64,000 nucleotides of DNA from Pyrococcus horikoshii OT3 (GCF_000011105.1 NC_000961.1:310001-374000); one strand, 5' to 3'; positions 3,347-51,972 are shown, numbered from the stretch's first letter. The notes: generated by a model not told the origin, from the sequence alone. Numbers and translations: made by a program.

Positions 3347-4570
3347 TCAAAGCCTCTGAGAGAATGGAACTGGAACTGCTGAGATTGCAAAAATTATCCA
3401 AATTAATATTGCAAGTGCTTTTCTACCAGGAGTTAATGGGGTAACCTCATCTAAGGCCCCAGGATTTCCTATTCTTCCCATCAAGAGGATTAGAATTCCC
3501 CAAAGAAGCCACCCTGGCCAGAAGTAGGATAACCCGAGCGTTATGAACCCAAGTGCATACGTTAGTATCCTGTGGGCTCTTTCTGGCATTAAAGCTCTTG
3601 CTATATGTCCACCATCTAATTGGGCTGCTGGTATAAGATTTAGGAAAGTTACCAATATTCCGACCCATCCAGCAACTGCTAGTGGATGCAAAATTATCCC
3701 AGAGCCCTGGGGAAGATTTCCCAGGACAAATTTTGTTAAGGCGTAGAAGAGTATGCTTGTTCCAAAGTATATCGTTTCTCCCTGCTTTAGATAATCTACC
3801 GGGACGATGACCGAAAGCTTAAGTCCAATTATAGTTACAGGAATTGCCACCAAAAGTCCCGCAATTGGCCCGCTAGCCCCTAAATCAACGGCCGCATTCC
3901 TAGTTGGAATTGGAGATTTCACCCTTATTACGGCCCCAAGCGTTCCTATGAAGGAGGGAAATGGAATGAAGTACGGAAACGTTGATTTAACATTATGTAA
4001 AGTTGCAGCTATCTTATGTCCCATCTCGTGGGTTCCAAGTATTGAGATTATTCCAAGGGAGAACGCTAATGCATTTAGATATACGTTCTTTATCCCTGGA
4101 AGGTTCAGCTCGTTTAAAGTTGCGACGTAGAGGGATGAAAGGATATATCCTGCAAAGAAAGTGCTAAAAAGGGTTAGCACGAATAATATTATTCCTATCA
4201 GCGGATTCTCCCTACTTTCCACATTTTTAGCTGGAAAAACATATAGTAGGGTTTTATCCTTGGATCTCTTTAGTGCAACCCAATAGCCAAGCTTTTCCAT
4301 TTCCTTAAGAACTTTCTCAAAATCCTTCTCTATGATCCCTAAAACTTCATATACATAGACTTCTCCTCTCCTCTCCAAAAGCGATCCTAGCTCGTAGAAC
4401 TTCCTAAGGGCTTCTTCCACTCCATGTTCCTCTTCCTCAACGTCTATCTCATAACCTACTAGTATCATATCCCCTCCGCATACGGGGCAGGCGTTGGGGA
4501 GGAGGGGCTTAGTCGAGTCGATAACCTCTCTATGTCCACATGATATACATTCATAGATTCCCTTCGGCAA
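3347..4570 (-). CDS. Site-2 protease-type M50 zinc metalloprotease with zinc ribbon
   Basis: The protein starts with a CISCGH...CPVCGG zinc ribbon (residues 8-33), followed by a small regulatory domain and a multi-pass membrane protease core. HEMGH at 181-185 supplies two zinc ligands and the catalytic Glu, and NLIPAAQLDGGH at 311-322 supplies the third ligand (Asp319). S2P enzymes cut transmembrane segments of substrate proteins, often releasing regulators. The start at 4570 overlaps the preceding gene's end by 20 bases, but it is needed to keep the zinc ribbon. It is last in a run with the aconitase-X genes; no functional link is evident. Confidence 0.9.
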   Translation of the reverse strand: MPKGIYECISCGHREVIDSTKPLLPNACPVCGGDMILVGYEIDVEEEEHGVEEALRKFYELGSLLERRGEVYVYEVLGIIEKDFEKVLKEMEKLGYWVALKRSKDKTLLYVFPAKNVESRENPLIGIILFVLTLFSTFFAGYILSSLYVATLNELNLPGIKNVYLNALAFSLGIISILGTHEMGHKIAATLHNVKSTFPYFIPFPSFIGTLGAVIRVKSPIPTRNAAVDLGASGPIAGLLVAIPVTIIGLKLSVIVPVDYLKQGETIYFGTSILFYALTKFVLGNLPQGSGIILHPLAVAGWVGILVTFLNLIPAAQLDGGHIARALMPERAHRILTYALGFITLGLSYFWPGWLLWGILILLMGRIGNPGALDEVTPLTPGRKALAILIWIIFAISAVPVPFSQRL

Positions 4571-4955
4571 GGATTTCCACCTCCCCCTCCTGGGGGTTGA
4601 TCCTTACCCTCATTCCCGTCTTTAGCTTTGATATGTCAACGTTTGTTATCAAGGGAATTCCAGAGATTATAGCTCCTGCAGTAACTATAGGTTCCGCTTC
4701 CTCCACTATTATAGCCTTAGGTCCCTTACCATTTTTAGAGAGGGCGTAGAGGATGTAGGAACCAACAGTTGACCCCTTTCCCTTTGGAAATACCAAGATC
4801 TTACCAGTTATGCTCTCTCCCTTTATGTCGCTTTCCGGATCCGTTATAGTTCCTGTTTCGGGATCAACTCCCCCTAAAAATGACAAGGGTTTCCTGGATA
4901 CTATCACCTCTCCCTCAACCACAACCTTTCCTATTCCTTTTCCCTTGAGCTTCAT
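4551..4955 (-). CDS. Phosphomevalonate dehydratase small subunit (aconitase X swivel domain)
   Basis: A 134-residue swivelling beta-alpha domain of the AcnX small-subunit (DUF126) family: KGKGIGKVVVEGE, SFLGGVDPETG and FPKGKGSTVGSYILY. In archaea it pairs with the large subunit encoded immediately upstream (the start here at 4955 coincides with that gene's last base). The pair converts (R)-5-phosphomevalonate to trans-anhydromevalonate 5-phosphate in the archaeal modified mevalonate route, feeding isoprenoid lipid synthesis. The GSTVGS loop is the substrate-binding element of the family. The order large-then-small in one operon supports a heterodimer. Confidence 0.88.
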   Translation of the reverse strand: MKLKGKGIGKVVVEGEVIVSRKPLSFLGGVDPETGTITDPESDIKGESITGKILVFPKGKGSTVGSYILYALSKNGKGPKAIIVEEAEPIVTAGAIISGIPLITNVDISKLKTGMRVRINPQEGEVEILAEGNL

Positions 4956-6130
4956 CAGGGGGCCTCCATGATAATTTTTTCAACGCTCTCCAATTTTACA
5001 TTAAGTCCAAAGGATTTAAAATAGAAGGCGGCCTTCCCGCTGTTGGTTGCAACTCCAGAGTACCACTCCTTTACTGGAGAGACTACCAGGCATACATCCT
5101 GTAATAACTTTCCATTGTACCTCTCAATTACCTCGGTGTAGCCTAAAAAGTCGGCTAGGGCTTTAACGCTCCTACTGATCGTTATATAAAGCGGTATTCT
5201 TAATGGTTTTCCCCTCATCTTCAAAAGTTCTGCAATGTTCTTTACCTCCTTAAGGGAAGCATGGGGGCAACCCAGGAGAATGAAATCAACCTCTCCCCAG
5301 TCAGCATTGAACCTCTCCTTAACATCCTCAACCTCCTTAGAATCAATGGTTATCTTCTCTACCTTGTCATTAATTGCTCCTCTCCATTCAGGTGTGTGCT
5401 TCTCCACATGATATAGGGCAACTCCTCCGCTAGCGGCCATGCTGGCCCCTAAGGCCTTAAGTTCATCTAAACTAGGTGTGAGGTTAGAAAAGTAAGGAAT
5501 TCCATTTTCAACTATTTCTCCAACTCTATATCCCAATAAAGAGTATTCAACTTCATTTTTAGGTTCAAACGTTACCTTTACAAAATGTGTGGCCTTTCTA
5601 TTTTCGTCTAGATGAAGTCCATAATTTGGCGTTTTTCCAACTATCGCAGCTGCAAGGCTTGAAGGTCCACCCTCCCTATTGGTTCTTGCTCCGAGAACAG
5701 AATTAGCGAAGCTAACGGCCGAGCTTTCGCTCCATGCTAGGTGATCCCCAAACTTAGGAAGATTGGCCCCATAATAAGGTGTACAGGTTGATGTGACTTC
5801 GATTCCCATTTCCCTGTAAAGGCTTATTATCTCTTCCTGCTTTTCCATGAAATCCTCATTTCCTATTCCTGGAGGATTGAGGGTTGTATAGACTGAAACC
5901 TTCGCCCCCATCTCAACGAGATCCCTTAAAAATTCGAGTCCAGCCTCTCCTAGATTTTTATAGCTTACACCGGCTATTTGAGCACTTTTTATGGGTATAA
6001 GCCTATCAGCTCCGTAAAGATCCCCTAAGGCTACCAATATCTCCATGGCCTTTTGAAGAGCCGGCCCATATTCCCCGGATAATGCGAGTTCCTCCTCTTT
6101 TGTAAGATACAATGTTATCACCTCATTCAA
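4955..6130 (-). CDS. Phosphomevalonate dehydratase large subunit (aconitase X catalytic)
   Basis: A 391-residue AcnX catalytic chain. Signatures include LTKEEELALSGEYG at the start, the TCTPYYGANLPKFGDHLAWSESSAV segment with a cluster-type cysteine, NREGGPSSLAAAIVGKTP, and LLGCPHAS near residue 285. These cysteines are expected to bind the 4Fe-4S cluster of this aconitase-superfamily enzyme. Together with the adjacent small subunit it dehydrates phosphomevalonate in isoprenoid biosynthesis. The start overlaps the ASCH gene by 8 bases, making a four-gene minus-strand run with the M50 protease. Length fits the archaeal family of about 390-400 residues. Confidence 0.9.
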   Translation of the reverse strand: MNEVITLYLTKEEELALSGEYGPALQKAMEILVALGDLYGADRLIPIKSAQIAGVSYKNLGEAGLEFLRDLVEMGAKVSVYTTLNPPGIGNEDFMEKQEEIISLYREMGIEVTSTCTPYYGANLPKFGDHLAWSESSAVSFANSVLGARTNREGGPSSLAAAIVGKTPNYGLHLDENRKATHFVKVTFEPKNEVEYSLLGYRVGEIVENGIPYFSNLTPSLDELKALGASMAASGGVALYHVEKHTPEWRGAINDKVEKITIDSKEVEDVKERFNADWGEVDFILLGCPHASLKEVKNIAELLKMRGKPLRIPLYITISRSVKALADFLGYTEVIERYNGKLLQDVCLVVSPVKEWYSGVATNSGKAAFYFKSFGLNVKLESVEKIIMEAP

Positions 6131-17941: not shown

Positions 17942-18925
17942 TTAAATACATTTTCCCTTAAGACTCATTCTCTGTGAAACTTTTTTGCATGCTTCTTTAA
18001 GTTTTCTGGCGTTTTCTTCTGGAATTCCATCGTATGTGAATTCCCAAGTCCCGAGTTCAATTCCCGCTGTATACTTAACCTTCCCATTATCTCTTAGAAT
18101 TGGGTAGAACTCTATGTGGAGGTGATAGAAGGGATAATTCCCCTTAAAAGGGGCTTGGAATATCATCATAGCATATGGCATTTGCCTATCTAGAACGGCG
18201 TTTAGCGTTGCGGTAGTTACTTGGATAACTTCCGCTAGGTCTTCAATTTCATTCACCTTAAGGTCGGTTAGGTACTGAATGTGCCTTTTAGGGTATATAT
18301 GAACTTCAAAGGGCCAGCTTGCAAAGAATGGCATAAAAACTATGAAGTTATCATTTTCATAGATAGTCCTCTCCCCGTTCTTTTCCTCTTCTTTAATTAT
18401 CCTGCAGAATATGCATTCCCCAGTTCTCTTATAGTACCTTCTAGAGTTCTCTATTTTAAGTCTAACCTTGAGAGGAATATATGGAAGGGCGTAAAGTTGG
18501 CCGTGAGGATGCTTTAAGCTTACCCCAATTTCCTCTCCCTTATTTCTAAAAATAGCAAGGTATGCAACGTTGCGATTTTCCTTTAACGTTTCCGTAATTT
18601 TTATCCACATCCTCACTATCTTTACCATTTGTTCCCTGGGAAGCTCATCCAAATCTCTGAGCTCATGCTTGGGAGTCTCGACAATAACACTACATTGACC
18701 CATAGCCCTGGCCTTTTTATAGAAATCCTCATTTTTAGGTTTTGGTGCGTCGAATGATAGCATTGGGAATCTGTTCGGAAGTAAAAGGACTTCCCATCCA
18801 TATCCTGTCTCTTCGCTTCCTGGACAAAATGGACAAAAATTTCTAGGTCTCCATGGTCTATTTTTCCTGACTGCAGATACCATGATCCACTGCCCTGTGA
18901 GAGGGTTATATCGAAGTTCTCTCAT
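17942..18925 (-). CDS. galT: Galactose-1-phosphate uridylyltransferase
   Basis: Exchanges UMP between UDP-glucose and galactose-1-phosphate in the Leloir pathway. It starts RYNPLTGQWIMVSAVRKNRPWRP, has the CPFC zinc-binding pair near residue 32, and the active-site HPHGQLYALPYIP with the nucleophilic His near residue 138. A second HIT-like region includes HIYPKRHIQYL and YHLHIEFYP. Length of 327 residues is normal. It faces away from the beta-glycosidase gene across a 54-base AT-rich gap with TATA-like sequence at about 18957-18967. Confidence 0.95.
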   Translation of the reverse strand: MRELRYNPLTGQWIMVSAVRKNRPWRPRNFCPFCPGSEETGYGWEVLLLPNRFPMLSFDAPKPKNEDFYKKARAMGQCSVIVETPKHELRDLDELPREQMVKIVRMWIKITETLKENRNVAYLAIFRNKGEEIGVSLKHPHGQLYALPYIPLKVRLKIENSRRYYKRTGECIFCRIIKEEEKNGERTIYENDNFIVFMPFFASWPFEVHIYPKRHIQYLTDLKVNEIEDLAEVIQVTTATLNAVLDRQMPYAMMIFQAPFKGNYPFYHLHIEFYPILRDNGKVKYTAGIELGTWEFTYDGIPEENARKLKEACKKVSQRMSLKGKCI

Positions 18926-18979
18926 ACTCTCACCAACCTTAAAATTGTTTAGTTCAAAGTATATTAAAGGTGGTCGTAA

Positions 18980-20251
18980 ATGCCTCTTAAGTTCCCCGAA
19001 ATGTTTCTCTTTGGTACCGCAACATCATCCCATCAGATAGAGGGAAATAATAGATGGAATGATTGGTGGTACTATGAGCAGATTGGAAAGCTCCCCTACA
19101 GATCTGGTAAGGCTTGCAATCACTGGGAACTTTACAGGGATGATATTCAGCTAATGACCAGCTTGGGCTATAATGCTTATAGGTTCTCCATAGAGTGGAG
19201 CAGGCTATTCCCAGAGGAAAATAAATTTAATGAAGATGCTTTCATGAAATACCGGGAGATTATAGACTTGTTATTGACGAGAGGTATAACTCCCCTGGTG
19301 ACCCTACACCACTTTACTAGCCCTCTCTGGTTCATGAAGAAAGGTGGCTTCCTTAGGGAGGAGAACCTAAAACATTGGGAAAAGTACATAGAAAAGGTTG
19401 CTGAGCTTTTAGAAAAAGTTAAACTAGTAGCTACCTTCAATGAGCCGATGGTATACGTAATGATGGGATATCTAACGGCTTATTGGCCCCCATTCATTAG
19501 GAGTCCATTTAAGGCCTTTAAGGTAGCTGCAAACCTGCTTAAAGCTCACGCAATTGCCTATGAACTTCTTCATGGGAAATTCAAAGTTGGAATCGTAAAG
19601 AATATTCCCATAATACTCCCAGCGAGTGACAAGGAGAGGGATAGAAAAGCCGCTGAGAAAGCTGATAATTTATTTAACTGGCACTTTTTGGATGCGATAT
19701 GGAGTGGGAAATACAGAGGGGTATTTAAAACATATAGGATTCCCCAAAGTGACGCAGATTTCATTGGGGTTAACTATTACACGGCCAGCGAAGTAAGGCA
19801 TACTTGGAATCCTTTAAAATTCTTCTTTGAGGTGAAATTAGCGGATATTAGCGAGAGGAAGACTCAAATGGGATGGAGCGTTTATCCAAAAGGAATATAC
19901 ATGGCCCTTAAAAAAGCTTCCAGGTATGGAAGGCCTCTTTATATTACGGAAAACGGAATAGCGACGCTTGATGATGAATGGAGAGTGGAATTCATAATTC
20001 AACACCTCCAATACGTTCATAAGGCTATCGAAGACGGCCTGGATGTAAGAGGTTACTTCTATTGGTCATTTATGGATAACTACGAGTGGAAAGAGGGGTT
20101 TGGGCCTAGATTTGGCCTAGTGGAAGTTGATTATCAAACCTTCGAGAGAAGGCCCAGGAAGAGTGCTTACGTATACGGAGAAATTGCAAGAAGTAAGGAA
20201 ATAAAGGATGAGCTATTAAAGAGATATGGCCTACCAGAACTTCAACTTTAG
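18980..20251 (+). CDS. GH1 beta-glycosidase
   Basis: A 423-residue family 1 glycoside hydrolase. Glu155 in ATFNEP is the acid/base and Glu324 in YITENG is the nucleophile. The FGTATSSHQIEG start and the C-terminal YFYWSFMDNYEWKEGFGPRFGL are family blocks. Length and both catalytic positions match what I remember of the membrane-associated P. horikoshii enzyme with preference for alkyl-beta-glucosides. It has no signal peptide. It lies between galT and the MFS gene and overlaps the latter tail to tail by 21 bases, so it belongs to the galactoside-use cluster, though its natural substrate is not proven. Confidence 0.95.
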   Translation: MPLKFPEMFLFGTATSSHQIEGNNRWNDWWYYEQIGKLPYRSGKACNHWELYRDDIQLMTSLGYNAYRFSIEWSRLFPEENKFNEDAFMKYREIIDLLLTRGITPLVTLHHFTSPLWFMKKGGFLREENLKHWEKYIEKVAELLEKVKLVATFNEPMVYVMMGYLTAYWPPFIRSPFKAFKVAANLLKAHAIAYELLHGKFKVGIVKNIPIILPASDKERDRKAAEKADNLFNWHFLDAIWSGKYRGVFKTYRIPQSDADFIGVNYYTASEVRHTWNPLKFFFEVKLADISERKTQMGWSVYPKGIYMALKKASRYGRPLYITENGIATLDDEWRVEFIIQHLQYVHKAIEDGLDVRGYFYWSFMDNYEWKEGFGPRFGLVEVDYQTFERRPRKSAYVYGEIARSKEIKDELLKRYGLPELQL

Positions 20252-21551
20252 GATTTCCTCTGCTCTCATCTTTAGAATTTCTTTGACTTTGTCCCTATCT
20301 TCCGGGTAGCTCCTTCTTATCCAGATCCAGACTAGGGCACAGGGTACCCAGAATAGCGTTCCAATTAAGAGGGTATATTGGTATGCTAGTGGTTTAGTGT
20401 AGCCCATCTGAACGAGTGTTTCTATCAGGAATCCTCCAAGCACAGGCCCAATGGCCTTCCCCACGTTGTCAAGTATGTTGAACAGGCCAAAGACGGTTCC
20501 CCTATCTTCCGGTAGATTGACTTGGGAAACGATAGCCCTTACGTTTGGCCCTGCATAGGAAACGAACTGAATGAATAATATTGAATAAACGGTTAGGCCA
20601 AGCCAGTGTATTGTATTTAGCTTACTCGGAAGTGGATAGAGGATTAATCCAATTGCAGCTATCATTCCAAGGAAAATTGCTATTCCCGTTATAACGGCCC
20701 TTCCTCCTCTTTTCCTGGTCTCGAAGTAATCGCCTACAAAACCTCCAAATAAACTACCAAGAACGCTTGCTATCCCGATTATTAGAAGCATGAACGTTGC
20801 TGTCTGCTTATCCATTCCCCTCGTAACTTGAAGGAAGGAGATAAGCCAATACATGAGTATTCCCCATGGAACGGTTCCTATAATCCCCTGGAGGAAAATT
20901 AAAATATTTGTTCTTGTCTTAAGGGATTTCTTAACTGCTTCAAGACTTAACTTATAGGCATACTCATATCCCTTTTCAATTAGGACTCTAATTTCCCTCT
21001 CTCCTTCTCCCCTCCTTGGTTCTTCAGCTATTATGTAAAATAGGGGAGCGAGTATGAAGTTTGGAACTGCGGCTATAATAAAGGGAGTTCTCCAACTAGT
21101 TATTACCCCTGCAATTATCATTCCAAACAATGTTCCAAAGCCAAAAGCTGTCTCAATGTATGAGTACCCTCTTCCCCTCTTTTCTTCCTCAAACATGTCT
21201 GCAATCAAGGAGTATCCTATGGGAATTATCGATCCGATCCCAATTCCAGTGAGGAACCTCATCGTTAGAAGTTGCCAATATGAGTGAACATAGGCCGTAA
21301 GAAAGCACGGGATTTCTCCCAGGAGAACCCCAATGACTAATAGTTTTTTCCTTTGCTTAATATCTGCAAGCATACCCCATATTATTGTAATCAGCGCGCT
21401 GGTAGCTACGAATATAGATGAGACGAACCCCATTTGAGTTTCTCCTATCCCGAATTCCTTCATTATCTGCTGGTAATTTGGTGGGAGTAAGTTCTGATCC
21501 GCCATCAAAAAGGTTGCCATTAGTACGAGAAGGATAATAGAAATTTTCCTC

Positions 21552-21565
<14 letters not shown>
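20231..21565 (-). CDS. MFS transporter, probable sugar permease
   Basis: A 12-helix major facilitator protein. The loop 2-3 motif appears as WGMLADIKQRKKLLVIG and again as GGFVGDYFETRKRGGRA between helices 8 and 9, and RFLTGIGIGSIIPIGYSLIADMFEEEKRGRG marks helix 4-5. Several upstream in-frame starts exist. I chose ATG 21565 because GGAGG at 21573-21577 is 7 bases before it; this gives 444 residues. It overlaps the GH57 gene by 14 bases and so is in the alpha-galactosidase/galK operon. Import of galactose or a galactoside is the likely role (inference from context). Confidence 0.88.
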
Positions 21566-23701
<2,136 letters not shown>

Positions 23702-40995: not shown

Positions 40996-41400
40996 TTATT
41001 CCACGTACTCCGCTTTTATTTTAAGCTTCTTTGCAATCCTCCATTGCTCTTTGTCGCTAGTTAAAAGCTTGCCATATCTTTTTGCCTGGGCTAGGTAAAG
41101 TGCATCGTAAACCGGAATACTCCAGTTGATAGCTATGCTCATAGCATCCTTGAGGTAATGCTCAAAGGGTTCAAAATTTATGACATCCTCTTCAAGCCTC
41201 TTCAATGCTTTGAGCATTATTCCAACCTCTTCAGCTGATACAACTTTGTATAGCACGTAATGCTTCCAGATGGCGTTTGAGACCTCAGCTAAAGCTAGGG
41301 TTAGGGAGTGCGGATCATCTAGCAGGTATTTTCTGACTTCCTCCCAATTCTCTTCCCTTAATATGTATTTAGCTATGGATGATGCGTCAATTACTATCAC
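40996..41400 (-). CDS. vapC: VapC-type PIN ribonuclease toxin
   Basis: A 134-residue PIN domain with all expected acidic residues: Asp5 (MIVIDAS), Glu39 (ALAEVSN), Asp99 (VYDALYLAQA) and Asp116 (TSDKE). VapC toxins are Mg2+-dependent RNases, typically cutting tRNA or rRNA. The start is a GTG at 41400, overlapping the VapB 3' end by 14 bases. This is the only one of the window's recognisable VapC toxins that looks intact. Confidence 0.92.
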   Translation of the reverse strand: MIVIDASSIAKYILREENWEEVRKYLLDDPHSLTLALAEVSNAIWKHYVLYKVVSAEEVGIMLKALKRLEEDVINFEPFEHYLKDAMSIAINWSIPVYDALYLAQAKRYGKLLTSDKEQWRIAKKLKIKAEYVE

Positions 41401-41834: not shown

Positions 41835-43061
41835 ATGTCGGAGAGCTTAAAGCTCAAGCTTATTAAGAATGCGGCCTGGCTTTTTGGGGCTGAAATTATT
41901 TCAAAGCTATTAGCTTATGGTGTAATAGTTATCTTGAGCAGAACCCTTGGCCCGGAGGGATTGGGGCAATACTCTTTTATCTTCTATTACGTTGGGCTTC
42001 TTGGCATCTTTTCCGACTTTGGGATAAGTTATTATTTCATGAGGGAGGTTGCTAGGGATAAGAGTAAAGCTGAAGAACTCTTACCAGATGTTTTGGGTCT
42101 TAAAATTGTTCTTGCTTTGATCAATTTTGGTGTTATAGCTGTTTTAACACTTTTCCTCCCAAAGCCAAGATGGATGAAAGTCTTGATATTATTAGTAGGA
42201 GCTGAAGCTATGTTCATGTGGATTTCTTATATGTTTGTAAACCTTATGTATGCTCACGAGGTCACGAAATATGAAGCCATAGCGAGAACAATTGAGAGAG
42301 TTTGGGCGTTCTTTGTTGGAGGAACTATTCTTTACCTTTACAGGTCTTTATCCCCCTTTATAATTGCCCTTCTCGTTGGTTACATGATAAGGGAGTCCCT
42401 TAGAATAAAGTGGGGAAGTAAGTTCGTTAAAAAGGTTAGAATATATTTTAGACTAAAGAATTGGGTTTTTCTGTTGAGAAAAAGCTATCCATTCTGGCTA
42501 ATTGGTCTCTTTACCTTAATTTACTACCGTACCGACATGGTAATGCTCAGCTTGATGAAGGGAGATTACGAAACTGGGATCTATAGGGCGGCTTATACCT
42601 TAATTGAGGTCTCCCTATTTGTGCCGAATATCGTTGTATCTACAACGATGCCTTCAATAGCTAGATTATGGAAAGAAGATAAAAGAACTTTAAATATTCT
42701 TATGAAAAAAAGTATACAGATACTAGTAGGATTGGGAGCTTTAGCTTTAGCTGGATATTTTGTCTTTGCTCGTCTGGGAATCCTTATCGTATTCGGTGAA
42801 AAGTTCCTCCCAAGTGTTCCAGTTCTTAGAGTTCTAGCTTTTGCGGTACCTTTCATGTTTTTAAATTCTCTTTTTGGGAGCTTTCTGAACGCAACTGAAA
42901 AAGAAGGGGTATTTACTAAAATAACGGGGCTTACAGCGTTGTTAAATGTTGTGCTAAATTACCTCTTAATAATGAATTTGGGGGCAAAAGGGGCTGCCAC
43001 GGCTACTATAATTAGTCAGGGGATAGCTACAGTACTAAGTGTTCTGGAAGTTAACTATTAA
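41835..43061 (+). CDS. Polysaccharide flippase (Wzx/MATE-like), C-terminus apparently truncated
   Basis: A 408-residue polytopic protein of the O-antigen flippase family, expected to move lipid-linked glycans across the membrane. Recognisable are the N-terminal LKLIKNAAWLFGAEIISKLLAYGVIVILSRTLGPEGLGQYSF block and the later LNATEKEGVFTKITGLTALLNVVLNYLLI. About 12-13 helices are visible. It stops abruptly after TATIISQGIATVLSVLEVNY, where relatives have at least one more helix. The end coincides with the start of the minus-strand block (27-base overlap with the HAD gene), so the tail may have been lost at a recombination junction. Confidence 0.82.
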   Translation: MSESLKLKLIKNAAWLFGAEIISKLLAYGVIVILSRTLGPEGLGQYSFIFYYVGLLGIFSDFGISYYFMREVARDKSKAEELLPDVLGLKIVLALINFGVIAVLTLFLPKPRWMKVLILLVGAEAMFMWISYMFVNLMYAHEVTKYEAIARTIERVWAFFVGGTILYLYRSLSPFIIALLVGYMIRESLRIKWGSKFVKKVRIYFRLKNWVFLLRKSYPFWLIGLFTLIYYRTDMVMLSLMKGDYETGIYRAAYTLIEVSLFVPNIVVSTTMPSIARLWKEDKRTLNILMKKSIQILVGLGALALAGYFVFARLGILIVFGEKFLPSVPVLRVLAFAVPFMFLNSLFGSFLNATEKEGVFTKITGLTALLNVVLNYLLIMNLGAKGAATATIISQGIATVLSVLEVNY

Positions 43062-43613
43062 AGACCTTATAGCGTTAGATATCAGATTTTTTTCATTTTT
43101 ATCATCGGTAATGTAAATATATGGAAACCAGTGATTTTTTAAAACTTCTCTAAACTTTGTGTCTGAGAGGTGACGCTTTTTTACTCCTATAATCTTTCTC
43201 CCCTTAATATTAAAGGTTGTTGCCGCATATTCTTCAAAACCGAGCATATCTGCAAAGGCTTTTGCAGAAGGCTCAATTGTTGCGGTGAGCAGGACTTTCT
43301 TTGCCCTTTTATACTTTCTGATTTCGGCGAGAACATCAAGATTTATTGGCACTTTTTTAGCCCATTCCCTTGCAAAAGATAATAGGTCTTCGTAATCAAG
43401 CCCAAAAGTCATAAACGAGAGGACGATTTCATCAGCTCTGCGTTTATCCATAAGTTTCGATAGGAGTTTAACTAGTAACCATCCCTCCCTTGCAATAAGA
43501 TAACGTAGCGGCCTCTTCTTTTTCCTGAAGTAGTCGAGCAACAGCTTGTAAGTTGAGTTATATTTAAGTGGTATAAGAGTTCCGTCAAGGTCAGATATGA
43601 CGTGGAGCGTCAT
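43035..43613 (-). CDS. HAD-superfamily phosphatase
   Basis: A 192-residue HAD hydrolase: SDLDGTLIPL (motif I, nucleophile Asp8), LLTATIEPSA (motif II), a Lys near residue 139 and YITDDKNE (motif IV). A helical cap is inserted between motifs I and II. In some bacteria HAD domains occur fused to UbiA-type membrane transferases, and here two UbiA-like membrane genes lie 1 kb upstream on the same strand, which suggests a shared pathway. Overlaps the FkbM gene by 23 bases. Confidence 0.8.
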   Translation of the reverse strand: MTLHVISDLDGTLIPLKYNSTYKLLLDYFRKKKRPLRYLIAREGWLLVKLLSKLMDKRRADEIVLSFMTFGLDYEDLLSFAREWAKKVPINLDVLAEIRKYKRAKKVLLTATIEPSAKAFADMLGFEEYAATTFNIKGRKIIGVKKRHLSDTKFREVLKNHWFPYIYITDDKNEKNLISNAIRSLIVNFQNT

Positions 43614-44589
43614 TTTGCATCACCCTTATAGAAACAACAGTCACTTTCCAGTGAGGGTTGTCACTTATAATGGCAACATCAAAAGGTAGTGAGCGAATGT
43701 AGTCCCACCGCTTTACTTCTGGCGTATCGTGGAACTCGACGACAAGACCTTCAACGTCATAGATGCGACCAGTCTTTAGGAGCTTATCTATTATTCCATA
43801 TTCACACCCTTCACAGTCGAGTTTTATTATATCCGGTTTGAATTCGTTCATCACTCTTATGATGTCTCTCACCTTAACACTCGTCTTCTTACCTGCTCTT
43901 ATATATCTGGACGCACCAAGCGAGAACTCATCTGGAATGAGAAACTCAACCATGCTATCTTTCTCTCCAACAGCCTCATTTATTGCGACAATTATGTTGT
44001 CAAACTCGTTCAGTTTTACATTTTCAACCAACAGCTCATATGCCTCTCGTTGAGGTTCAAAGCTGACGACCTTTTTTGCATCGTTCAGAGCAAAGAACAG
44101 AGCAGAATCGCCGATAAATCCACAAACATCCAGAACTGTTTTACCTTTGTAATCGAAGACCTTGTAATCTTCCCTCACAAACATCTCGTAAAGACTAAAT
44201 ACTCCGGTGACACCTTTGCTTGTCATCGCTAGCCTAAACTTAACAATCCTGCCGTTATATATGAATTCTGCTATAAAGTTGCTCCCAACCCTTAACTTGA
44301 GTTTTTCAATAACATCTCCTATGTATCTCAGCTCGGAGGGTCTGAAAGGTATGCCATCAAGGATGACTTTGCCGTTCCTCACTTTAATGCTCTTGAAGTG
44401 CTTGAACACATCACATACATACACCAAATCGCTTATGAAGTATTTTGAAGGATCGTCTATCTCGATTATCTGCCCGTTTTTGCACTCCAGACGCTTTACA
44501 CTTCTGAGGTATTTGAACAGAAGTAGCGTTATCAGAGGTCTCTTGATACGAGATGATATCTCTTCTAAGATGTTCAACATTGAGTTCAT
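43591..44589 (-). CDS. FkbM-family methyltransferase
   Basis: A 332-residue protein with an SAM-dependent methyltransferase domain in its second half: KTVLDVCGFIGDSALFF is motif I, KVVSFEPQREAYELLVENV motif II, and DIIKLDCEGCEYGIIDKLL the FkbM hallmark. It probably O-methylates a sugar on a lipid-linked or surface glycan. The protein at 48572 shares the arrangement, including DCEGCEY, but is on the other strand and far more AT-rich. Overlaps the membrane gene upstream (ATGA). Confidence 0.88.
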   Translation of the reverse strand: MNSMLNILEEISSRIKRPLITLLLFKYLRSVKRLECKNGQIIEIDDPSKYFISDLVYVCDVFKHFKSIKVRNGKVILDGIPFRPSELRYIGDVIEKLKLRVGSNFIAEFIYNGRIVKFRLAMTSKGVTGVFSLYEMFVREDYKVFDYKGKTVLDVCGFIGDSALFFALNDAKKVVSFEPQREAYELLVENVKLNEFDNIIVAINEAVGEKDSMVEFLIPDEFSLGASRYIRAGKKTSVKVRDIIRVMNEFKPDIIKLDCEGCEYGIIDKLLKTGRIYDVEGLVVEFHDTPEVKRWDYIRSLPFDVAIISDNPHWKVTVVSIRVMQNDAPRHI

Positions 44590-45416
44590 TTCGCACCACC
44601 CCTAAATACTTTTGAGCCAGCATAGAACAGAAGAGAATATCCAAGTAACACCGCAAATACACCCAAGACTGGAAGGTAGTTAACGACATTTAAAACGATG
44701 AGAGGAGCACTGAAGATGAAGAACATAATCCCGGGATACAGCAAAAGGTGAAAGAGCCTTGTTTTTATGAAAACACATTTAAATTTTTTCATAGCATAAT
44801 CAATTCCTCCGTAGAAGGAAAGTGATGCGGAGTATAGTGAGATCACGATAATGGTGCTCTTCTCAGGTGCAAACAAGATAAGTGGGAACATTATGGAAAA
44901 GTGCTTAAGATATCTAAGCATAGCCAAGAAACCATACGCCCTCTTTTCAGTCGAGATGAAGTTATAAACAATGAACAGGGCAATCATTAAAGATAGAATA
45001 GCCGAATACTCGACAAGAAAACCCCTATCAATTACCGAGTATTCATAAGTTAGCAGGAGTGCAAAACTGAGAATTAACACCCTCTCCAGAACGTAAAAGA
45101 CGCTTTTTATGGGTGAGATAAGGGGCAAAACAGTCCTCGCAAACTTGCCCTCCCTTCTCGAAGATATGTTGTCGTTGATTATGTAGCCAATCTCGTAAGC
45201 AGTCATAAACAGCAGAAACATAATGGTAAAAGCGACAACGTTCGAAATCGAAGGATTAACAGCAAAATAATACGTTATGACCGGCAGGTTGGGTAAGTAG
45301 CCAGAGAACACACCAAGAAGTAAGCTTATTTTTCCCTTAGGAGCACCGCCATACTTTTTAACACCCTCAAAGAACCTCTTAAACGTATATACAACGGGCA
45401 ACGGATAGACATTCAC
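44586..45416 (-). CDS. UbiA-like integral membrane protein
   Basis: A 276-residue protein with about eight hydrophobic segments. The loop YEIGYIINDNISSRREGKFART resembles the first Asp-rich motif of UbiA-type prenyltransferases (NDxxD region), though the second motif is not obvious. The next gene encodes a paralogue with the matching loop YELGYLMNDTISRRVEGKVHK. I would call it UbiA-superfamily-like with reservation. It lies between the FkbM and the paralogue genes. Confidence 0.55.
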   Translation of the reverse strand: MNVYPLPVVYTFKRFFEGVKKYGGAPKGKISLLLGVFSGYLPNLPVITYYFAVNPSISNVVAFTIMFLLFMTAYEIGYIINDNISSRREGKFARTVLPLISPIKSVFYVLERVLILSFALLLTYEYSVIDRGFLVEYSAILSLMIALFIVYNFISTEKRAYGFLAMLRYLKHFSIMFPLILFAPEKSTIIVISLYSASLSFYGGIDYAMKKFKCVFIKTRLFHLLLYPGIMFFIFSAPLIVLNVVNYLPVLGVFAVLLGYSLLFYAGSKVFRGGAK

Positions 45417-45422
45417 TTTCTA

Positions 45423-46289
45423 TCACCCCCTCGAAGCGAGGTAGCTTAGGAGTATTAAAACAACGTTAACCGCAAAGGGAATCAAATACTGACGGAGCAA
45501 ATCAGTATTGCCTAAATAGACGAACGAAACCAGAACGGTAAAGGTTGATAGGCTCGTGACTTGAAGATACATCATAGAGAACCTCTCAACCCTTCTCTTG
45601 AAGTCTCTTGGAGGGTTGTCCTTGCAAGCCGTTTTTAGGTAGTGAGCCTGAGAGAACCTGACCGCTATCGGCAGGATGAAGGACAGTGTTATGACGTTCT
45701 CAACCAGCGTTCCAGTGATTATGAAAGGTAGCAGGAGAACAAATGCCTTCATAAATTTGAGCGGGAAGCTGAGCATAACCGTTCTTACGTGCTTGGGAGT
45801 AAGGTCATAGAGGAGAAAAACCAGAAACAGTGTGACCTCCGCCAGAATTACCTGAGTTGAGTATTGTAGACCGACCAATTTCAGGAATACCAACGTGAAA
45901 ATCACAACATATATTGCCCTTGAAAGGGCGATAAGCAGGGAATCAAACACTGTTAGCTTTACTCTAACCTTGTGAACCTTCCCTTCAACTCTCCGTGAGA
46001 TGGTGTCGTTCATCAAATAGCCAAGTTCGTATATTGAGTTCATCAACAAGTAGCCGAGAGCAAGGAAAATAATAGTTTTTAGAGCCGAAAAAGCGAAGAG
46101 ATAATAGAGAACCAACGACAATAATGGAGCGTAGTCATACATAGCGAAGCTGAGGAGCGTCTGAAAAGTTACATTTATAAATGACCTCTTCCCGTTGCCC
46201 GACTTCAATACGTCCGAATAAACCCTAAGAAGCCCGTATCCAGAGGGTATGAGTGCAATTGCTCTGATTTTATTATTTAGAGCTATCAT
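45423..46289 (-). CDS. UbiA-like integral membrane protein, paralogue
   Basis: A 288-residue polytopic protein sharing the GY-x-x-ND-x-ISxRxEGK loop with its neighbour, in the same position after the third hydrophobic segment. The two probably arose by tandem duplication and may act as a heterodimer. UbiA relatives transfer prenyl groups, or in DPPR synthase attach phosphoribose to polyprenyl phosphate; the latter would suit a surface polymer island. Start overlaps the GT2 gene stop by 4 bases (ATGA). Confidence 0.55.
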   Translation of the reverse strand: MIALNNKIRAIALIPSGYGLLRVYSDVLKSGNGKRSFINVTFQTLLSFAMYDYAPLLSLVLYYLFAFSALKTIIFLALGYLLMNSIYELGYLMNDTISRRVEGKVHKVRVKLTVFDSLLIALSRAIYVVIFTLVFLKLVGLQYSTQVILAEVTLFLVFLLYDLTPKHVRTVMLSFPLKFMKAFVLLLPFIITGTLVENVITLSFILPIAVRFSQAHYLKTACKDNPPRDFKRRVERFSMMYLQVTSLSTFTVLVSFVYLGNTDLLRQYLIPFAVNVVLILLSYLASRG

Positions 46290-47251
46290 CCTATTAACCT
46301 CCTTAAAATCCCCCTAATCGGAATGAATAAGTCAAGTATCCACAACAGAGTTAAATACGATTGATGAGACCTCGTGAGCCTATAACCCTTGAGGTAATCA
46401 AGGTATTTCCAGAATAGTTTTCTCGCTTCAGCCCTTCCCAGAGAGTCTGAGACGGATGTGATGTAAGTCATAATGCTATAGGGCATCTGGTAAGACTTTA
46501 ACAGCTTGCATACTTCGTCAGATACTTTCGAAATCTCCTGTATTCTTGTGCAGACTTCTTCATAAACTCTTATCGTTTGCTCTATCTTACTCTCCTGCTT
46601 TATTTTATCGCTCCTCACCATAGATGCTCCCCTTACGAGATGATAGAAGTCTGGACTGGGGACAACGTATATCCTGTCAATTACCGAGAGGTACTGGGTG
46701 TAAAAGTATATGTCCTCAGAATACCACAAGTGCTCTGGAAAGCGTATTCCATAGTTCTCAACTATCTTTCTCCTCAGGAGCGAGTTTCCGTTGCCGAAGC
46801 GGGCCTTGAGCTTCAAAACGTCTTCCCAAGACACTACACCGTGTTTTGAGGCTTTAACATGGACTTTCTTGTCACTATCCTCAAAAACGTCGTAGTATTC
46901 AGTTGAAACTCCGCCGAAGCTCTTTATGTTACTCACAGTATCCTTGAGAAAAGTTTCGCTCCACCAGTCATCACTGTCTACGAATGCCAAAAACTTTCCA
47001 GAAGATACCTCTATTCCCATATTTTTTCCAATCATGGGGCCACTCCTTGGCTTTGGCGTCTTAAGAACTTCTACTTTATTGGGATATCTATCCTTAAACT
47101 CAAGGAGAAGCTCGTAGGTACCGTCATTGGAATGGTCGTCAACTAGTATGAGTTCCCAGTTCGTGTATGTTTGCTTTTCTATTGAGGTAAGAAGTCTCGG
47201 AACGTAATTTTTAGTATTGTACACTGGAACAATGATAGATACCTTTGTCAT
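46286..47251 (-). CDS. Family 2 glycosyltransferase
   Basis: A 321-residue GT-A fold enzyme: VSIIVPVYNTKNYVPRLLTSIEKQTYTNWELILVDDHSNDGTYELL at the N-terminus, and FVDSDDWW as the metal-binding DxD. The second half contains HLWYSEDIYFY, with the catalytic-base-type Glu-Asp. It transfers a sugar from a nucleotide donor to an unknown acceptor of the surface glycan. It is the first gene of the minus-strand run and divergent from the TagF-like gene across 58 bases. Confidence 0.9.
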   Translation of the reverse strand: MTKVSIIVPVYNTKNYVPRLLTSIEKQTYTNWELILVDDHSNDGTYELLLEFKDRYPNKVEVLKTPKPRSGPMIGKNMGIEVSSGKFLAFVDSDDWWSETFLKDTVSNIKSFGGVSTEYYDVFEDSDKKVHVKASKHGVVSWEDVLKLKARFGNGNSLLRRKIVENYGIRFPEHLWYSEDIYFYTQYLSVIDRIYVVPSPDFYHLVRGASMVRSDKIKQESKIEQTIRVYEEVCTRIQEISKVSDEVCKLLKSYQMPYSIMTYITSVSDSLGRAEARKLFWKYLDYLKGYRLTRSHQSYLTLLWILDLFIPIRGILRRLIG

Positions 47252-47309: not shown

Positions 47310-48497
47310 ATGGCAATGGATCGAGTAACAAAGCAATTAACGGTCTCAAAGCTTCTCTCACTGGCAAACTTCATCCCTAAAGATAGTCAAAAAATACTCT
47401 TTTACTCTACTCCAGATGTTTCGGATAATGCTCTAGCTTTATTTAAATACATTTCAGAGAAAACAGATGATTATGAACTAGCTTGGCTTCTTAACAACCC
47501 TAACTCTCCCTCTGTAAAGACGCTTAAAGAAAAATATCCAGAGGTAAAGACTATCTACCTATATTCGCTTGAAGGTCTAAAGGAACTTTTAAGATCCAAG
47601 TTTGTTGTTTTAACGGATGTCTTACCCTTAACTCCCCACCGAGGACAAAAAATAATTCAGCTCTGGCACGGTCTCCCCGGAAAGAAAACTGGCTATGAGC
47701 ACCCCCTTAACGTTAAAGATCTATACCTCTATATGGATAAGTGGACTACCGACTTTGTAACTACATCCGAGCTCGTCGTTGGAGCTTTCGTAAGGCAGTT
47801 CATGATAAATCCAAGGAAGTTCAGGATCCTTGGACAGCCCAGAAACGATGGCCTCTTTGACAATCTAAAGGACGCTAAAAACATTCTTTCCTCAATACTG
47901 GGAAGGGATGTTGAGGATTACGATCATTTAATATTGTACGCACCAACTTACAGGTACACCAGCTATATGAAAGACTTTCAAGCGAGCGTTAATGTTGTCA
48001 AAACCCTCTTTCACCATAAATTCTTAGAATTCCTTAAGGAGGAGAACATCTTGCTCGTAATAAAGCCTCATAAGTTGGTTGCGGATGTCATAAAACCTGA
48101 GATAAAGGAGAATTCAAACGTGATTCTGTTAACGGATGAGCATCTCCAATCACGCCTAATAACAATAAACGATGTGATGGGTGCTTTTGACATCTTAATA
48201 ACCGATTACTCAAGCATCTTTGAGGATTACATACTTTTGGAGAGGCCAATCCTCTTTTACCTACCTGATAGGGAAGCCTTGGAAAGAAAGAGTGGCTTTC
48301 TCCTACCCTACGAGTTTTTCGCTCCTGGGAGAAAGCCTGAAACCCTTGAAGGTCTTATACATGCATTGAAGATTTATATGGAAGACCCAGAAGTAGATAG
48401 TGAGTGGAGAAAAACCGTTAAAAATCTCCTTTATGAAGTTGGGAAGGATAATAAATCCTCTGAAAGGATATATAACCTTATTATCAAGCAGAAATAG
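47310..48497 (+). CDS. TagF-like CDP-alditol phosphotransferase
   Basis: A 395-residue protein of the CDP-glycerol glycerophosphotransferase family that in Gram-positive bacteria builds teichoic acids. Family blocks are IIQLWHGLPGKKTGYEH, ILGQPRNDGLF, LYAPTYRYTSYM and LITDYSSIFEDYILLERPILFYLPDRE; the His of QLWHG and the TDYSS loop are the donor site. There is no membrane segment, so it would act at the cytoplasmic face on a lipid-linked acceptor. A cytidylyltransferase lies 1.1 kb downstream. TATA-like TTAAAAATTTT ends about 20 bases before the start, giving a near-leaderless transcript. Confidence 0.88.
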   Translation: MAMDRVTKQLTVSKLLSLANFIPKDSQKILFYSTPDVSDNALALFKYISEKTDDYELAWLLNNPNSPSVKTLKEKYPEVKTIYLYSLEGLKELLRSKFVVLTDVLPLTPHRGQKIIQLWHGLPGKKTGYEHPLNVKDLYLYMDKWTTDFVTTSELVVGAFVRQFMINPRKFRILGQPRNDGLFDNLKDAKNILSSILGRDVEDYDHLILYAPTYRYTSYMKDFQASVNVVKTLFHHKFLEFLKEENILLVIKPHKLVADVIKPEIKENSNVILLTDEHLQSRLITINDVMGAFDILITDYSSIFEDYILLERPILFYLPDREALERKSGFLLPYEFFAPGRKPETLEGLIHALKIYMEDPEVDSEWRKTVKNLLYEVGKDNKSSERIYNLIIKQK

Positions 48498-48571
48498 GTT
48501 TTTTAGAAATATCTCATTACTTTGCAAAAGTTTTTTTAAAATATTCATTAGGTCATTAACTGGTGATCCTA

Positions 48572-49567
48572 ATGAAGTCATATTATAGATTGCTTGGACA
48601 TTATTATTTGTTACTTCGATTTTTTAAGAATTTGAGGGATCTAGGTGTTTCATTATTAGAGCTCGAGAATATTTTAGGTGTAATATATTGGTACCTTTTC
48701 AAACAAAAGTATTCTACACGTTGCAGATGTTGTAGTGAGTTGTATATTAATCAGACGAATATAAACCCCTATTATTTTGCATCCGCATGTAAATTAAAGA
48801 AAATGGGATTACCAGTTGAAATTCGAAATAGTGTCTTTTATTATGATGGATTAGAAGTCTATCCAACCGTTATTCCATACATAGCAAGAGTGATTAAATA
48901 TAACTGGCAAGTATTTAATATGAAGGGAAATCCTATGATATCATTTACTGTAAAAAATCACGATTTTAAGGCTGTGTTACTTAAGGGATATGAGGGATTA
49001 TTACAATTCTATGAGCAGTTTATTCTAGAACAATATGGAATGTTTGACTATAAAGATAAAACAGTTATTGATATAGGGGGCTTTATAGGGGATACTGCAT
49101 TGTACTTTTATTCGAAAGAGGCACGTAAAATAGTATCTTTTGAGCCATCTAAGAAAAATTACACAATTCTTATTAAAAATATTACCTTAAATAATATCAA
49201 AAATGTAATACCCATAAATGCTGGAGTTTGGGATGAAAATACAAAAGGTATAATTACTAACCCTGCTCCTACTGCCTACAGAGTAAAAGAAGAGAGCAAG
49301 GGTGATGTTGCCTTAGTTTCAATATTAGACATCATAGATTCTTATAGGCCAGATATCATTAAAATGGATTGTGAAGGGTGCGAATACAAAGTTTTCGAAA
49401 AGCTCCTAGAAACTGGATATATCTACGATGTTCCTGAATATGTATTTGAGGCTCATGGAAACATCAAAAATGAACTTTTAAGTAAACTTAGAAGCTTAGA
49501 TGAATTTAGGCTTTGTGTCCATAGTGACCTAGGAAATATGGCTATAGTATCCCTTAAAAAGCTATGA
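48572..49567 (+). CDS. FkbM-family methyltransferase, second copy
   Basis: A 331-residue homologue of the protein at 43591-44589. Its SAM motifs are KTVIDIGGFIGDTALYF, KIVSFEPSKKNYTIL and DIIKMDCEGCEYKVF. A N-terminal CRCCSELY cysteine stretch is peculiar to this copy. Codon use is markedly more AT-rich than the flanking genes, suggesting a separate arrival. I chose ATG 48572 (GGTGAT 6 bases upstream) over GTG 48563. It lies between the TagF-like and the cytidylyltransferase genes. Confidence 0.85.
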   Translation: MKSYYRLLGHYYLLLRFFKNLRDLGVSLLELENILGVIYWYLFKQKYSTRCRCCSELYINQTNINPYYFASACKLKKMGLPVEIRNSVFYYDGLEVYPTVIPYIARVIKYNWQVFNMKGNPMISFTVKNHDFKAVLLKGYEGLLQFYEQFILEQYGMFDYKDKTVIDIGGFIGDTALYFYSKEARKIVSFEPSKKNYTILIKNITLNNIKNVIPINAGVWDENTKGIITNPAPTAYRVKEESKGDVALVSILDIIDSYRPDIIKMDCEGCEYKVFEKLLETGYIYDVPEYVFEAHGNIKNELLSKLRSLDEFRLCVHSDLGNMAIVSLKKL

Positions 49568-49588
49568 AAGACTAAAGGGGGTCTCCTA

Positions 49589-50278
49589 ATGGTCACTCTG
49601 ATCCTTCTCGCTGGCGGATCCGGAACTAGGGCGAGCTTGAATTTGCCGAAGCAGTATTACAGGATCGAGGAGAAAATGGTCATAGAGTACACGCTGGAGA
49701 ACGTCTCCAGAGTTAAAGGTGTAGATAATATAATCCTCGTATCGAATCCACGGTTTATGGATACCGCTTTAGAGCTAAAGGAGAGCTTTCCTAAGATAAA
49801 AGATGTCGCGAAAGGGGGGAGGACGAGGAATGAATCGATATACAACGGATTCATGAAGGTTCCACAAAAAGAGAGCAAGATCCTTGTACACGATGCGGTA
49901 AGACCTTTCACTCCTAGATGGGTGTTTGAGAGAATAATCTCTCTGTTGGATGAGAGAGATGTGATAACTACGGTAAACCCAATAACTGGGAACTTAATAG
50001 AACTCGATAACGGGAAGGTGAAAAGGATATACGACAGGTCTAAATTTGCCATAGGAGAAGCTCCAACTGGATACCGCTATGGGGCATTAAAGAAGACGCT
50101 TGAGGTTGCGGTGAGCAACGGGACTTTAAATGAAATTCCTCATGATATAGTTTTAGCGATGAATGCGGGATTCGATGTTTACGTTCTCCCATGTAATTGC
50201 TTCAACTTAAAAATAACTTTTAAAGAGGATATTGAAATTGCGAGAACCTTGATAAAGATGCTGGAGGAGCGGGAGTGA
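49589..50278 (+). CDS. IspD/TarI-like alditol-phosphate cytidylyltransferase
   Basis: A 229-residue cytidylyltransferase: LILLAGGSGTRASLNLPKQYYRI is the CTP-binding loop, LVHDAVRPFTP the metal-binding motif, and APTGYRYGALKKTL the substrate loop. IspD makes CDP-methylerythritol in the MEP pathway, but archaea use mevalonate (this window has the archaeal phosphomevalonate dehydratase). A TarI/TarD-like role making CDP-ribitol or CDP-glycerol for the TagF-like enzyme is therefore much more likely. GGGGGTC precedes the ATG. Its TGA overlaps the next GTG. Confidence 0.87.
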   Translation: MVTLILLAGGSGTRASLNLPKQYYRIEEKMVIEYTLENVSRVKGVDNIILVSNPRFMDTALELKESFPKIKDVAKGGRTRNESIYNGFMKVPQKESKILVHDAVRPFTPRWVFERIISLLDERDVITTVNPITGNLIELDNGKVKRIYDRSKFAIGEAPTGYRYGALKKTLEVAVSNGTLNEIPHDIVLAMNAGFDVYVLPCNCFNLKITFKEDIEIARTLIKMLEERE

Positions 50279-51159
50279 AGCCAAGGATTTCAGTTATAAT
50301 TCCAACCTACAATAGGGAGGAGCTTCTTAGGAGGGCTATAGAAAGTGTGCTAGACCAGACCTTCGATGACTTTGAAATTTTAGTTATAGATGGCGCTAAG
50401 AGTGAGTCAACTCGAGAGCTTGTTCGTTCCTTTGGTGATGGAAGGATAAGGTACATTCCACAGAAAGGAAAGGGGATTGCTAATGCCCGTAATTTGGGTG
50501 TTTCAAAAGCAAGGGGAGAGTTCATAGCCTTCCTTGACGACGATGATAGGTGGAGGAGGGATAAGCTTGAGCTTCAGCTTGAGCTTTTTAAAGTCTTACC
50601 TCAAAGCTATGGCGTTGTATACACGGCCTTCACCTACTATTACTTAGAGAAAGATAAGGTTTTGGGAATAAAGCATCCTAGGGCGAGTGGTGATGTATAC
50701 AAACACCTCTTGAAGGATAACATCACGGGAACTTCTACTATTATGGTGAAGAGGGAATGCTTTAAGAAAGTGGGGCTTTTTAGGGAGGACTTTGTGACCT
50801 GTGAAGACTGGGATATGTGGCTTAGGATGGCGAAGGTATGCTACTTCGGAGCTATAGATGAACCATTAGTTGATTACTCCATTCATTCGGGTCAATTTTC
50901 CTTTGCTAAATATTTAGAAGGGAGGTACAAGATGATAGAAAAGCATTTGGATATAAAGCGTAACCCTAGGGTCCTTAGCTATCATCTCCTGCAAATTGGG
51001 GTTTTAAAACTTTTTAGCGGAGACAAACGTGGGGTTGAGGATTTGTTAAAGGCCTTTAGACTAAACCCAACGATCAGGGGAAATATCTGGGATATATTGT
51101 CTTCATTCGTTGACGTGAGGACGAGGATATATATTCTTAAGTTCCTGGGGCGACTTTAA
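50275..51159 (+). CDS. Family 2 glycosyltransferase
   Basis: A 294-residue GT-A enzyme: ISVIIPTYNREELLRRAIESVLDQTFDDFEILVIDGAKSESTRELV, then GIANARNLGVSKARGEFIAFLDDDDRWRRDKL with the DxD, and FVTCEDWDMWLRM near residue 184 with an acidic base. It likely extends the same polymer as the TagF/TarI-like genes. The start GTG at 50275 overlaps the cytidylyltransferase stop, so the two are translationally coupled. Confidence 0.92.
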   Translation: MKPRISVIIPTYNREELLRRAIESVLDQTFDDFEILVIDGAKSESTRELVRSFGDGRIRYIPQKGKGIANARNLGVSKARGEFIAFLDDDDRWRRDKLELQLELFKVLPQSYGVVYTAFTYYYLEKDKVLGIKHPRASGDVYKHLLKDNITGTSTIMVKRECFKKVGLFREDFVTCEDWDMWLRMAKVCYFGAIDEPLVDYSIHSGQFSFAKYLEGRYKMIEKHLDIKRNPRVLSYHLLQIGVLKLFSGDKRGVEDLLKAFRLNPTIRGNIWDILSSFVDVRTRIYILKFLGRL

Positions 51160-51173
51160 AAATAGGTGTGGGC

Positions 51174-51590
51174 ATGTTCAAAAGAAGGGAATATGAGCGG
51201 TGGATAGTAGAGGCCAAAAGAACACTTTCTTCTGCATATTCTGACCTGAAGGAAGGTTACTATGAATGGGCAAGTTTTAAAGCACAGCAAGCAGCAGAAT
51301 TAGCTGTAAAAGCGATTTTGAGGGGATTAGGATTTGCCCCTATAGGACATTCTATTACGCGCCTTTTGAAGGATCTATCTGGAAGTCTTAACTTAGATAT
51401 CCCCAGGGAGATTCTATATTTTGCAATGGAGCTTGACAGGAATTATATAGCGCCAAGGTATCCTGATGCATACCCGGAAGGTTCACCTTTCGAGTACTAT
51501 TCGGAGGACATTGCTAAGGAACTTGTAAAATACGCTGAAAAGATAATTAAATTCGTAGAGGTAGTGGTAGATGAGCTTCAAGCAACTTAA
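51174..51590 (+). CDS. HEPN-domain protein (toxin partner of MNT)
   Basis: A 138-residue HEPN helix bundle. Typical are YEWASFKAQQAAELAVKAILRGLGF, GHSITRLLKDLSG and DRNYIAPRYPDAYPEG. HEPN/MNT pairs are toxin-antitoxin systems in which HEPN is an RNase that MNT silences by nucleotidylation. I chose ATG 51174 with AGGTG 5 bases upstream over GTG 51168. It overlaps the MNT gene by 20 bases. Confidence 0.87.
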   Translation: MFKRREYERWIVEAKRTLSSAYSDLKEGYYEWASFKAQQAAELAVKAILRGLGFAPIGHSITRLLKDLSGSLNLDIPREILYFAMELDRNYIAPRYPDAYPEGSPFEYYSEDIAKELVKYAEKIIKFVEVVVDELQAT

Positions 51591-51972
51591 AGAGCTTGTG
51601 GATAGAATAGTCAAATACCTAAACGGAGATGTCACCGTAATCCTCTTTGGTTCCTATGCTAGAGGAGACTATAATAGAACCAGTGACTTTGATATTGTTG
51701 TTATTTCAGATAGGCTAGATGGAAACCCGTTGGAAAGGACAAAGCCATTGTACGCCTTAAACGAGGACTTCCTTCCGGTTGACATAATAGCCTACACAAG
51801 GGAGGAGTTCTTGAAGGCGTTAGAAAACCTCTCCCCAACTGCCCTTGATGCTATTTCATACGGGAAGGTTCTATACGATGATGGATTTTATAAGATAGCC
51901 AGAGAAAAGTTCGAGGAACTCAAGAGGAAGGGGCTAAGGAAGGGGAAGTATTGGATGATAAGAGGTTATTAA
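51571..51972 (+). CDS. MNT nucleotidyltransferase (antitoxin)
   Basis: A 133-residue minimal nucleotidyltransferase: VILFGSYARGDYNRTSDFDIVVISD holds the GSxARG and the DxD catalytic aspartates, and PVDIIAYTREEFLKAL the third acid. It pairs with the HEPN gene upstream and is probably its antitoxin by AMPylation of HEPN. Both frames are intact, so this module may be active. Confidence 0.9.
   Translation: MSFKQLKELVDRIVKYLNGDVTVILFGSYARGDYNRTSDFDIVVISDRLDGNPLERTKPLYALNEDFLPVDIIAYTREEFLKALENLSPTALDAISYGKVLYDDGFYKIAREKFEELKRKGLRKGKYWMIRGY

Follow-up and report, generated by a model that had tools for sequence, protein, structure and literature searches.

A conserved TagF-IspD-GT2 cassette with a remodelled cytidylyltransferase in Pyrococcus horikoshii and its probable role in CDP-alditol activation

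A stretch of 64,000 nucleotides from Pyrococcus horikoshii OT3 (NC_000961.1:310001-374000), hereafter the window, was analyzed for a putative surface-glycan locus. The original prediction placed a TagF-type phosphotransferase gene and an IspD/TarI-type cytidylyltransferase gene in 47310-50278. The coordinates are exact, as the TagF-like open reading frame has its first ATG at 47310 and the IspD-like one has its final base at 50278, and both Pfam matches are far above the cut-offs (Table 1). The accompanying genes named in that prediction were also found to be real, namely two GT2 and two FkbM genes, together with the archaeal mevalonate-branch dehydratase consisting of AcnX and its swivel subunit (4551-6130). 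The GT2 gene downstream overlaps the IspD stop by four bases.

Table 1. Coordinates of the TagF-IspD-GT2 cassette and of context genes in the window.
Feature	Coordinates	Strand	Remarks
TagF-like predicted CDP-alditol phosphotransferase	47310-48497	+	395 aa, single GT-B domain; PF04464 E 1.7e-61
IspD/TarI-like cytidylyltransferase, remodelled acceptor site (type A)	49589-50278	+	229 aa; PF01128 E 1.8e-33
GT2 glycosyltransferase, third gene of conserved cassette	50275-51159	+	PF00535 E 1.6e-33
FkbM-family methyltransferase, between TagF and IspD	48563-49567	+	TIGR01444 E 1.8e-27
GT2 glycosyltransferase, divergent neighbour of TagF	46286-47251	-	PF00535 E 1.7e-29
Wzx-type polysaccharide flippase, context gene	41835-43061	+	PF01943 E 6e-31
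Second FkbM methyltransferase, context gene	43591-44589	-	TIGR01444 E 3.7e-29
HAD-family phosphatase, context gene	43035-43613	-	PF12710 E 3.5e-11
AcnX, archaeal mevalonate-branch dehydratase	4955-6130	-	
AcnX swivel subunit	4551-4955	-	

Two membrane proteins encoded on the minus strand (44586-45416 and 45423-46289) are grouped with the HAD, FkbM and GT2 genes. They are 26% identical to each other and have the common motif YE.GY..ND.IS.R.EGK, and profile searches gave neither a Pfam or NCBIfam match nor a credible PDB match for them. Directly after the cassette, a HEPN and nucleotidyltransferase (MNT) pair is located at 51168-51972 in a toxin-antitoxin-like arrangement. A PIN-domain protein (40996-41400, minus strand) is encoded close to the flippase, and a Cas6-family CRISPR RNA endonuclease is encoded at 2557-3276 on the minus strand.

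Full-length IspD matches were counted in 94 genomes of the order. They were found in 15 genomes, PF04464 TagF was found in 18, and all 15 genomes with IspD also carry TagF (Fisher p about 9e-15, uncorrected for kinship). The two genes adjoin each other in these 15 genomes, one draft having them at contig ends, while in two of the three genomes with TagF only the TagF gene is cut by a contig end. Three layouts of the pair were recognized. Type A, the layout of the window, is TagF-IspD-GT2 with mostly four-base overlaps and is present in 10 species. A GT2 gene follows IspD directly in every one of the ten type A loci (71-83% identity), and in most of them another GT2 gene occupies the same divergent position as that at 46286-47251 in the window. 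Among relatives whose contig spans the position, the FkbM gene between TagF and IspD is found in the window only; in one relative the pair is split over two contigs and the spacing is unseen.

In type B (3 species), IspD and TagF are convergent inside a galactose/GH1 cluster. The type B pair (L053:3028-10923, L054, L052) is located beside galK, galT, GH1, GH57 and MFS genes, and the window has a matching galT-GH1-MFS-GH57-galK cluster at 17942-23695, which lacks the pair and is separated by approximately 25 kb from the TagF/IspD cassette of the window. The type B neighbours were considered as candidates for an alditol-phosphate reductase or kinase. They are a galactokinase, GalT, GH1, GH57 and an MFS transporter, and no alditol enzyme was found among them.

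In type C (2 species), IspD is fused to a short-chain reductase (SDR) and adjoins TagF. The fusions are located at L040:8292-9710 and L041:10103-11527 in two other Thermococcales. Over 96% of its length, the type C protein shares 47% identity with a Parabacteroides bifunctional cytidylyltransferase/SDR (capsule-type cluster), and it has the domain layout of the CDP-ribitol synthase Bcs1/Acs1, of which Bcs1 reduces ribulose-5-phosphate and makes CDP-ribitol (PMC10299916). As the IspD parts of the three layouts are only ~30% identical to one another and the same pairing is nevertheless kept, a functional link between IspD and TagF is the simplest reading.

The TagF-like protein matches PF04464 with 208.7 bits (cut-off 22.1) over positions 7-366 of the 367 of the profile, and alignment to the orthologues indicates that its start is probably Met3 at 47316. 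It contains the motifs WHG (H120), KPH (H254) and DYSS as well as Pro123. Both histidines are invariant in 15 relatives and are the equivalents of H444 and H584 of TagF, which are essential (PMC11666461) and whose roles were also described in PMC10299916. WHG is characteristic of alditol-phosphate transferases, while QHG or QYA is found in hexose-phosphate transferases (PMC11666461). The best Foldseek matches of the model (pLDDT 86.5) are TarL and TagF, with TarL first by E-value, and the residue before the second catalytic histidine is lysine as in TarL. The score is well under the TarF, TarL and TarB equivalog cut-offs.

The residue at H+3 was reported to be Pro in glycerol-phosphate transferases and Gly in ribitol-phosphate transferases (PMC10299916). 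By this rule the window protein, with P123, has the residue of the glycerol subtype and not that of the ribitol subtype. Pro is present at this position in all type A and type B TagF-like proteins and in TagF, while Gly is present in TarL, in the PF04464 partners of the TarI-TarJ pair of a methanogen locus (L063, see below) and in those of bacterial IspD-SDR proteins (L062, L064). The type C partners, for which ribitol is the predicted substrate, have Pro (G078) and Ile (G029), so that the rule provides a lean rather than a proof.

With the CDP-glycerol glycerophosphotransferases TagF, TarF and TagB, the window protein shares PF04464, the WHG and KPH histidines, DYSS and Pro at H+3, and in size it is similar to TagB, TarF and Cps7A (about 380-400 aa). 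A difference lies in the donor, as bacteria obtain CDP-glycerol from TagD-type and not IspD-type enzymes. No IspD-family enzyme is known to make CDP-glycerol. A pair of IspD-like and TagF-like proteins is also formed by Bcs1/Acs1 and the CroT domain of Bcs3 of Haemophilus influenzae (PMC10299916). Compared with CroT, the window TagF retains the H+5 lysine and both histidines, but it has Pro in place of the ribitol-type Gly, and the window IspD is unfused and has another acceptor site.

The IspD-like protein scores 116.6 bits against PF01128. The best curated name is IspD (TIGR00453), for which the score of 136.2 bits is below the cut-off of 181.3. In the fold search with the AlphaFold model (pLDDT 85.6), the best PDB folds were IspD and TarI, which score alike and give no substrate discrimination. 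The residues of the CTP site, R20, K27, G82, S88, R109 and K213 (E. coli IspD numbering is used throughout), are retained in the window protein, as is D106; the CTP contacts were taken from PMC5099578. R20, K27, R109, R157 and K213 are retained in the unfused IspD proteins of types A and B. The difference is found at T140, T165, Q167, T/S189 and D190, positions which we take to line the acceptor site on the basis of E. coli IspD structures and the roles of T140, T165 and T189 in them. T/S swaps aside, this signature is present in 13 of 14 bacterial and plant IspD/TarI references, the T. maritima reference being without two of the five, and it is retained by both type C proteins and by every sampled TarI. 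All five residues are missing from the 13 unfused proteins (10 of type A and 3 of type B), and the aligned residues in all ten type A proteins are N, A/S, T, P and H, respectively. In the tree, types A and B fall into a single supported group (100/99), at which the tree program warns of long branches meeting. The novelty of the finding lies in this remodelled subfamily of IspD.

Changes at two of these positions were also observed in Brevibacterium. There, T165 is replaced by Ala and T189 by Ile in IspD homologues paired with TagF (L065, L068, L069, L071-L074), and their TagF partners carry WHAGS. Some Brevibacterium walls contain mannitol phosphate, and acceptor-site changes may therefore track the alditol.

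TarI and TarI-TarJ of S. aureus and S. pneumoniae are similar to the window enzyme in cytidylyltransferase family and fold, in the CTP-site residues and in having a PF04464 neighbour gene. The window IspD is, however, only 23-25% identical to them, with T140, T165, Q167, T189 and D190 replaced, and no TarJ is present in the genome.

The original prediction noted that the reductase or kinase making the alditol phosphate is not in the window, and indeed the ORFs of the window that were scanned include none. It is not simply elsewhere, as a search of the genome for a TarJ-like reductase, suggested at that time, gave threonine 3-dehydrogenase (end-to-end alignment to PDB 2d8a) as the only MDR. Family searches of the genome also gave no FGGY kinase (glycerol kinase), no NAD-dependent glycerol-3-phosphate dehydrogenase and no mannitol dehydrogenase, and the window IspD has neither a fused SDR nor an SDR near the cassette. 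The archaeal sn-glycerol-1-phosphate dehydrogenase is present, and sn-glycerol-1-phosphate, which belongs to the archaeal lipid pathway, was the single source of glycerol phosphate that could be located in the genome. The genome also has a dedicated inositol-1-phosphate cytidylyltransferase/DIPP synthase (717.6 bits), two SDRs that seem to have counterparts in the majority of the other genomes searched, and one TagD/FAD-synthase-like protein of 148 aa.

Taken together, the best explanation overall is that the TagF-IspD-GT2 cassette both produces and consumes an alditol phosphate activated with CDP, probably in a surface-glycan role. The CDP-alditol class of the cassette, for which the three layouts, the reductase fusions in two relatives and the invariant TagF histidines provide support, is the part that we hold with the most confidence. 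The IspD-like enzyme would convert CTP and an alditol phosphate to the CDP-alditol. In the cytosol, the TagF-like enzyme would then take the alditol phosphate off its CDP carrier and attach it to a hydroxyl group of a sugar in a membrane-linked glycan, as its family and catalytic residues suggest. From the gene context, the two GT2 enzymes would extend the glycan and the Wzx-type flippase would export it.

The earlier proposal of CDP-glycerol or CDP-ribitol feeding the cell surface is therefore upheld as far as CDP-alditol activation and phosphotransfer in a surface-glycan locus are concerned, while its ribitol half is disfavoured by the acceptor site, Pro123 and the lack of TarJ. The further step to polymer phosphodiesters is not supported. 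The genome has one PF04464 gene, which encodes a single domain of ~390 aa with the size of single-transfer enzymes, and a second TagF, as in wall teichoic acid systems with several PF04464 enzymes (primase and polymerase), was not found in it. The transfer of one or a few glycerol phosphates and the formation of a polymer are equally likely, and the term teichoic-acid-like is too strong.

Regarding the identity of the alditol, the loss of the acceptor-site residues, Pro123 and the precursor families present and absent, taken together, suggest that glycerol is more likely than ribitol. Assignment of the alditol as glycerol is nonetheless tentative, and that of the sn-1 form is distinctly more doubtful. 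The full proposition, which we put forward as a speculative one, is that an IspD-type enzyme was re-tooled to make CDP-sn-1-glycerol and that the TagF homologue decorates a surface glycan with mirror-image glycerol phosphate. CDP-1-glycerol resembles CDP-ribitol at the carbon beside the phosphate, and fukutin and FKRP prefer CDP-1-glycerol to CDP-3-glycerol (PMC8262930). From this likeness, replacement of ribitol by the archaeal enantiomer would be stereochemically plausible. The TagD-type route of bacteria, the TagD-like protein in the genome, the unclean Pro rule in Thermococcales and the variation at T165 and T189 in Brevibacterium count against this reading. A literature search of limited coverage gave no relevant paper on archaeal CDP-ribitol or on P. 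horikoshii IspD.

Formation of CDP-ribitol as in ribitol teichoic acids has to be weighed against the glycerol reading. A reductase, either an SDR or another, would provide ribitol-5-phosphate, IspD would convert it to CDP-ribitol and TagF would transfer the ribitol phosphate. The window IspD does belong to the IspD/TarI fold and sequence family, related Thermococcales have fusions with the layout of a CDP-ribitol synthase, the fold match to TarL and the lysine before the second catalytic histidine are in line with a ribitol transferase, and either of the two SDRs could supply the precursor. We consider this route unlikely because the ten type A enzymes are all without the acceptor-site residues that the sampled TarI and the fused enzymes keep, in addition to Pro123 instead of Gly and a cassette with neither TarJ in the genome nor an SDR as neighbour.

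Activation of a different polyol or sugar phosphate, such as a pentose phosphate or myo-inositol-1-phosphate, which the TagF homologue would place on the glycan, is judged equally unlikely. The acceptor site is remodelled in both types A and B, Thermococcales make myo-inositol-1-phosphate, and the N-glycan of Thermococcus kodakarensis carries phosphodiester-linked myo-inositol. Nevertheless, inositol-1-phosphate already has its dedicated cytidylyltransferase in the genome, and the TagF-like protein has WHG and not the QHG or QYA of hexose-phosphate transferases (PMC11666461).

The patchy distribution across the order and the extra FkbM gene, which splits the operon in the window genome only, could also be taken to mean that the genes no longer function and are remnants of gene transfer. 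This is very improbable in view of the open frames, the 62-79% identity of the window enzymes to the type A orthologues and the invariant catalytic residues of both. Least credible of all is a genuine MEP-pathway IspD that the archaeon has either kept or acquired, as the likeness in fold, CTP-binding residues and best curated name is outweighed by the sub-cut-off score, the lost acceptor-site residues, the occurrence in only 15 of 94 genomes with constant TagF pairing, and the archaeal mevalonate branch represented by AcnX in the window. The original assertion that the cytidylyltransferase has no isoprenoid role is borne out by the same evidence, and a likely misannotation of the IspD-like gene as an isoprenoid enzyme is thereby corrected.

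A related gene set was observed in a Methanobacteriaceae MAG (L063:6775-14595, JAHFBZ010000008.1), where three TagF-like genes are followed by TarI and then by a TarJ-like MDR. The TarI has the canonical acceptor-site residues, the TarJ-like call comes from reading of the sequence, and contamination is possible in a MAG. It is apparently a complete ribitol-teichoic-type gene set in another archaeal order, which would mean that the lineage of the window is not the only one in archaea to have teichoic-type genes.

Alditol-phosphate surface chemistry is usually regarded as bacterial. The conservation of the cassette in at least 10 Thermococcales species, with an acceptor site unlike that of IspD or TarI, suggests that archaea have their own version. 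Moreover, as the genome apparently makes the archaeal enantiomer of glycerol phosphate alone, the enzyme would be a direct test of whether teichoic-type chemistry can operate on archaeal stereochemistry.
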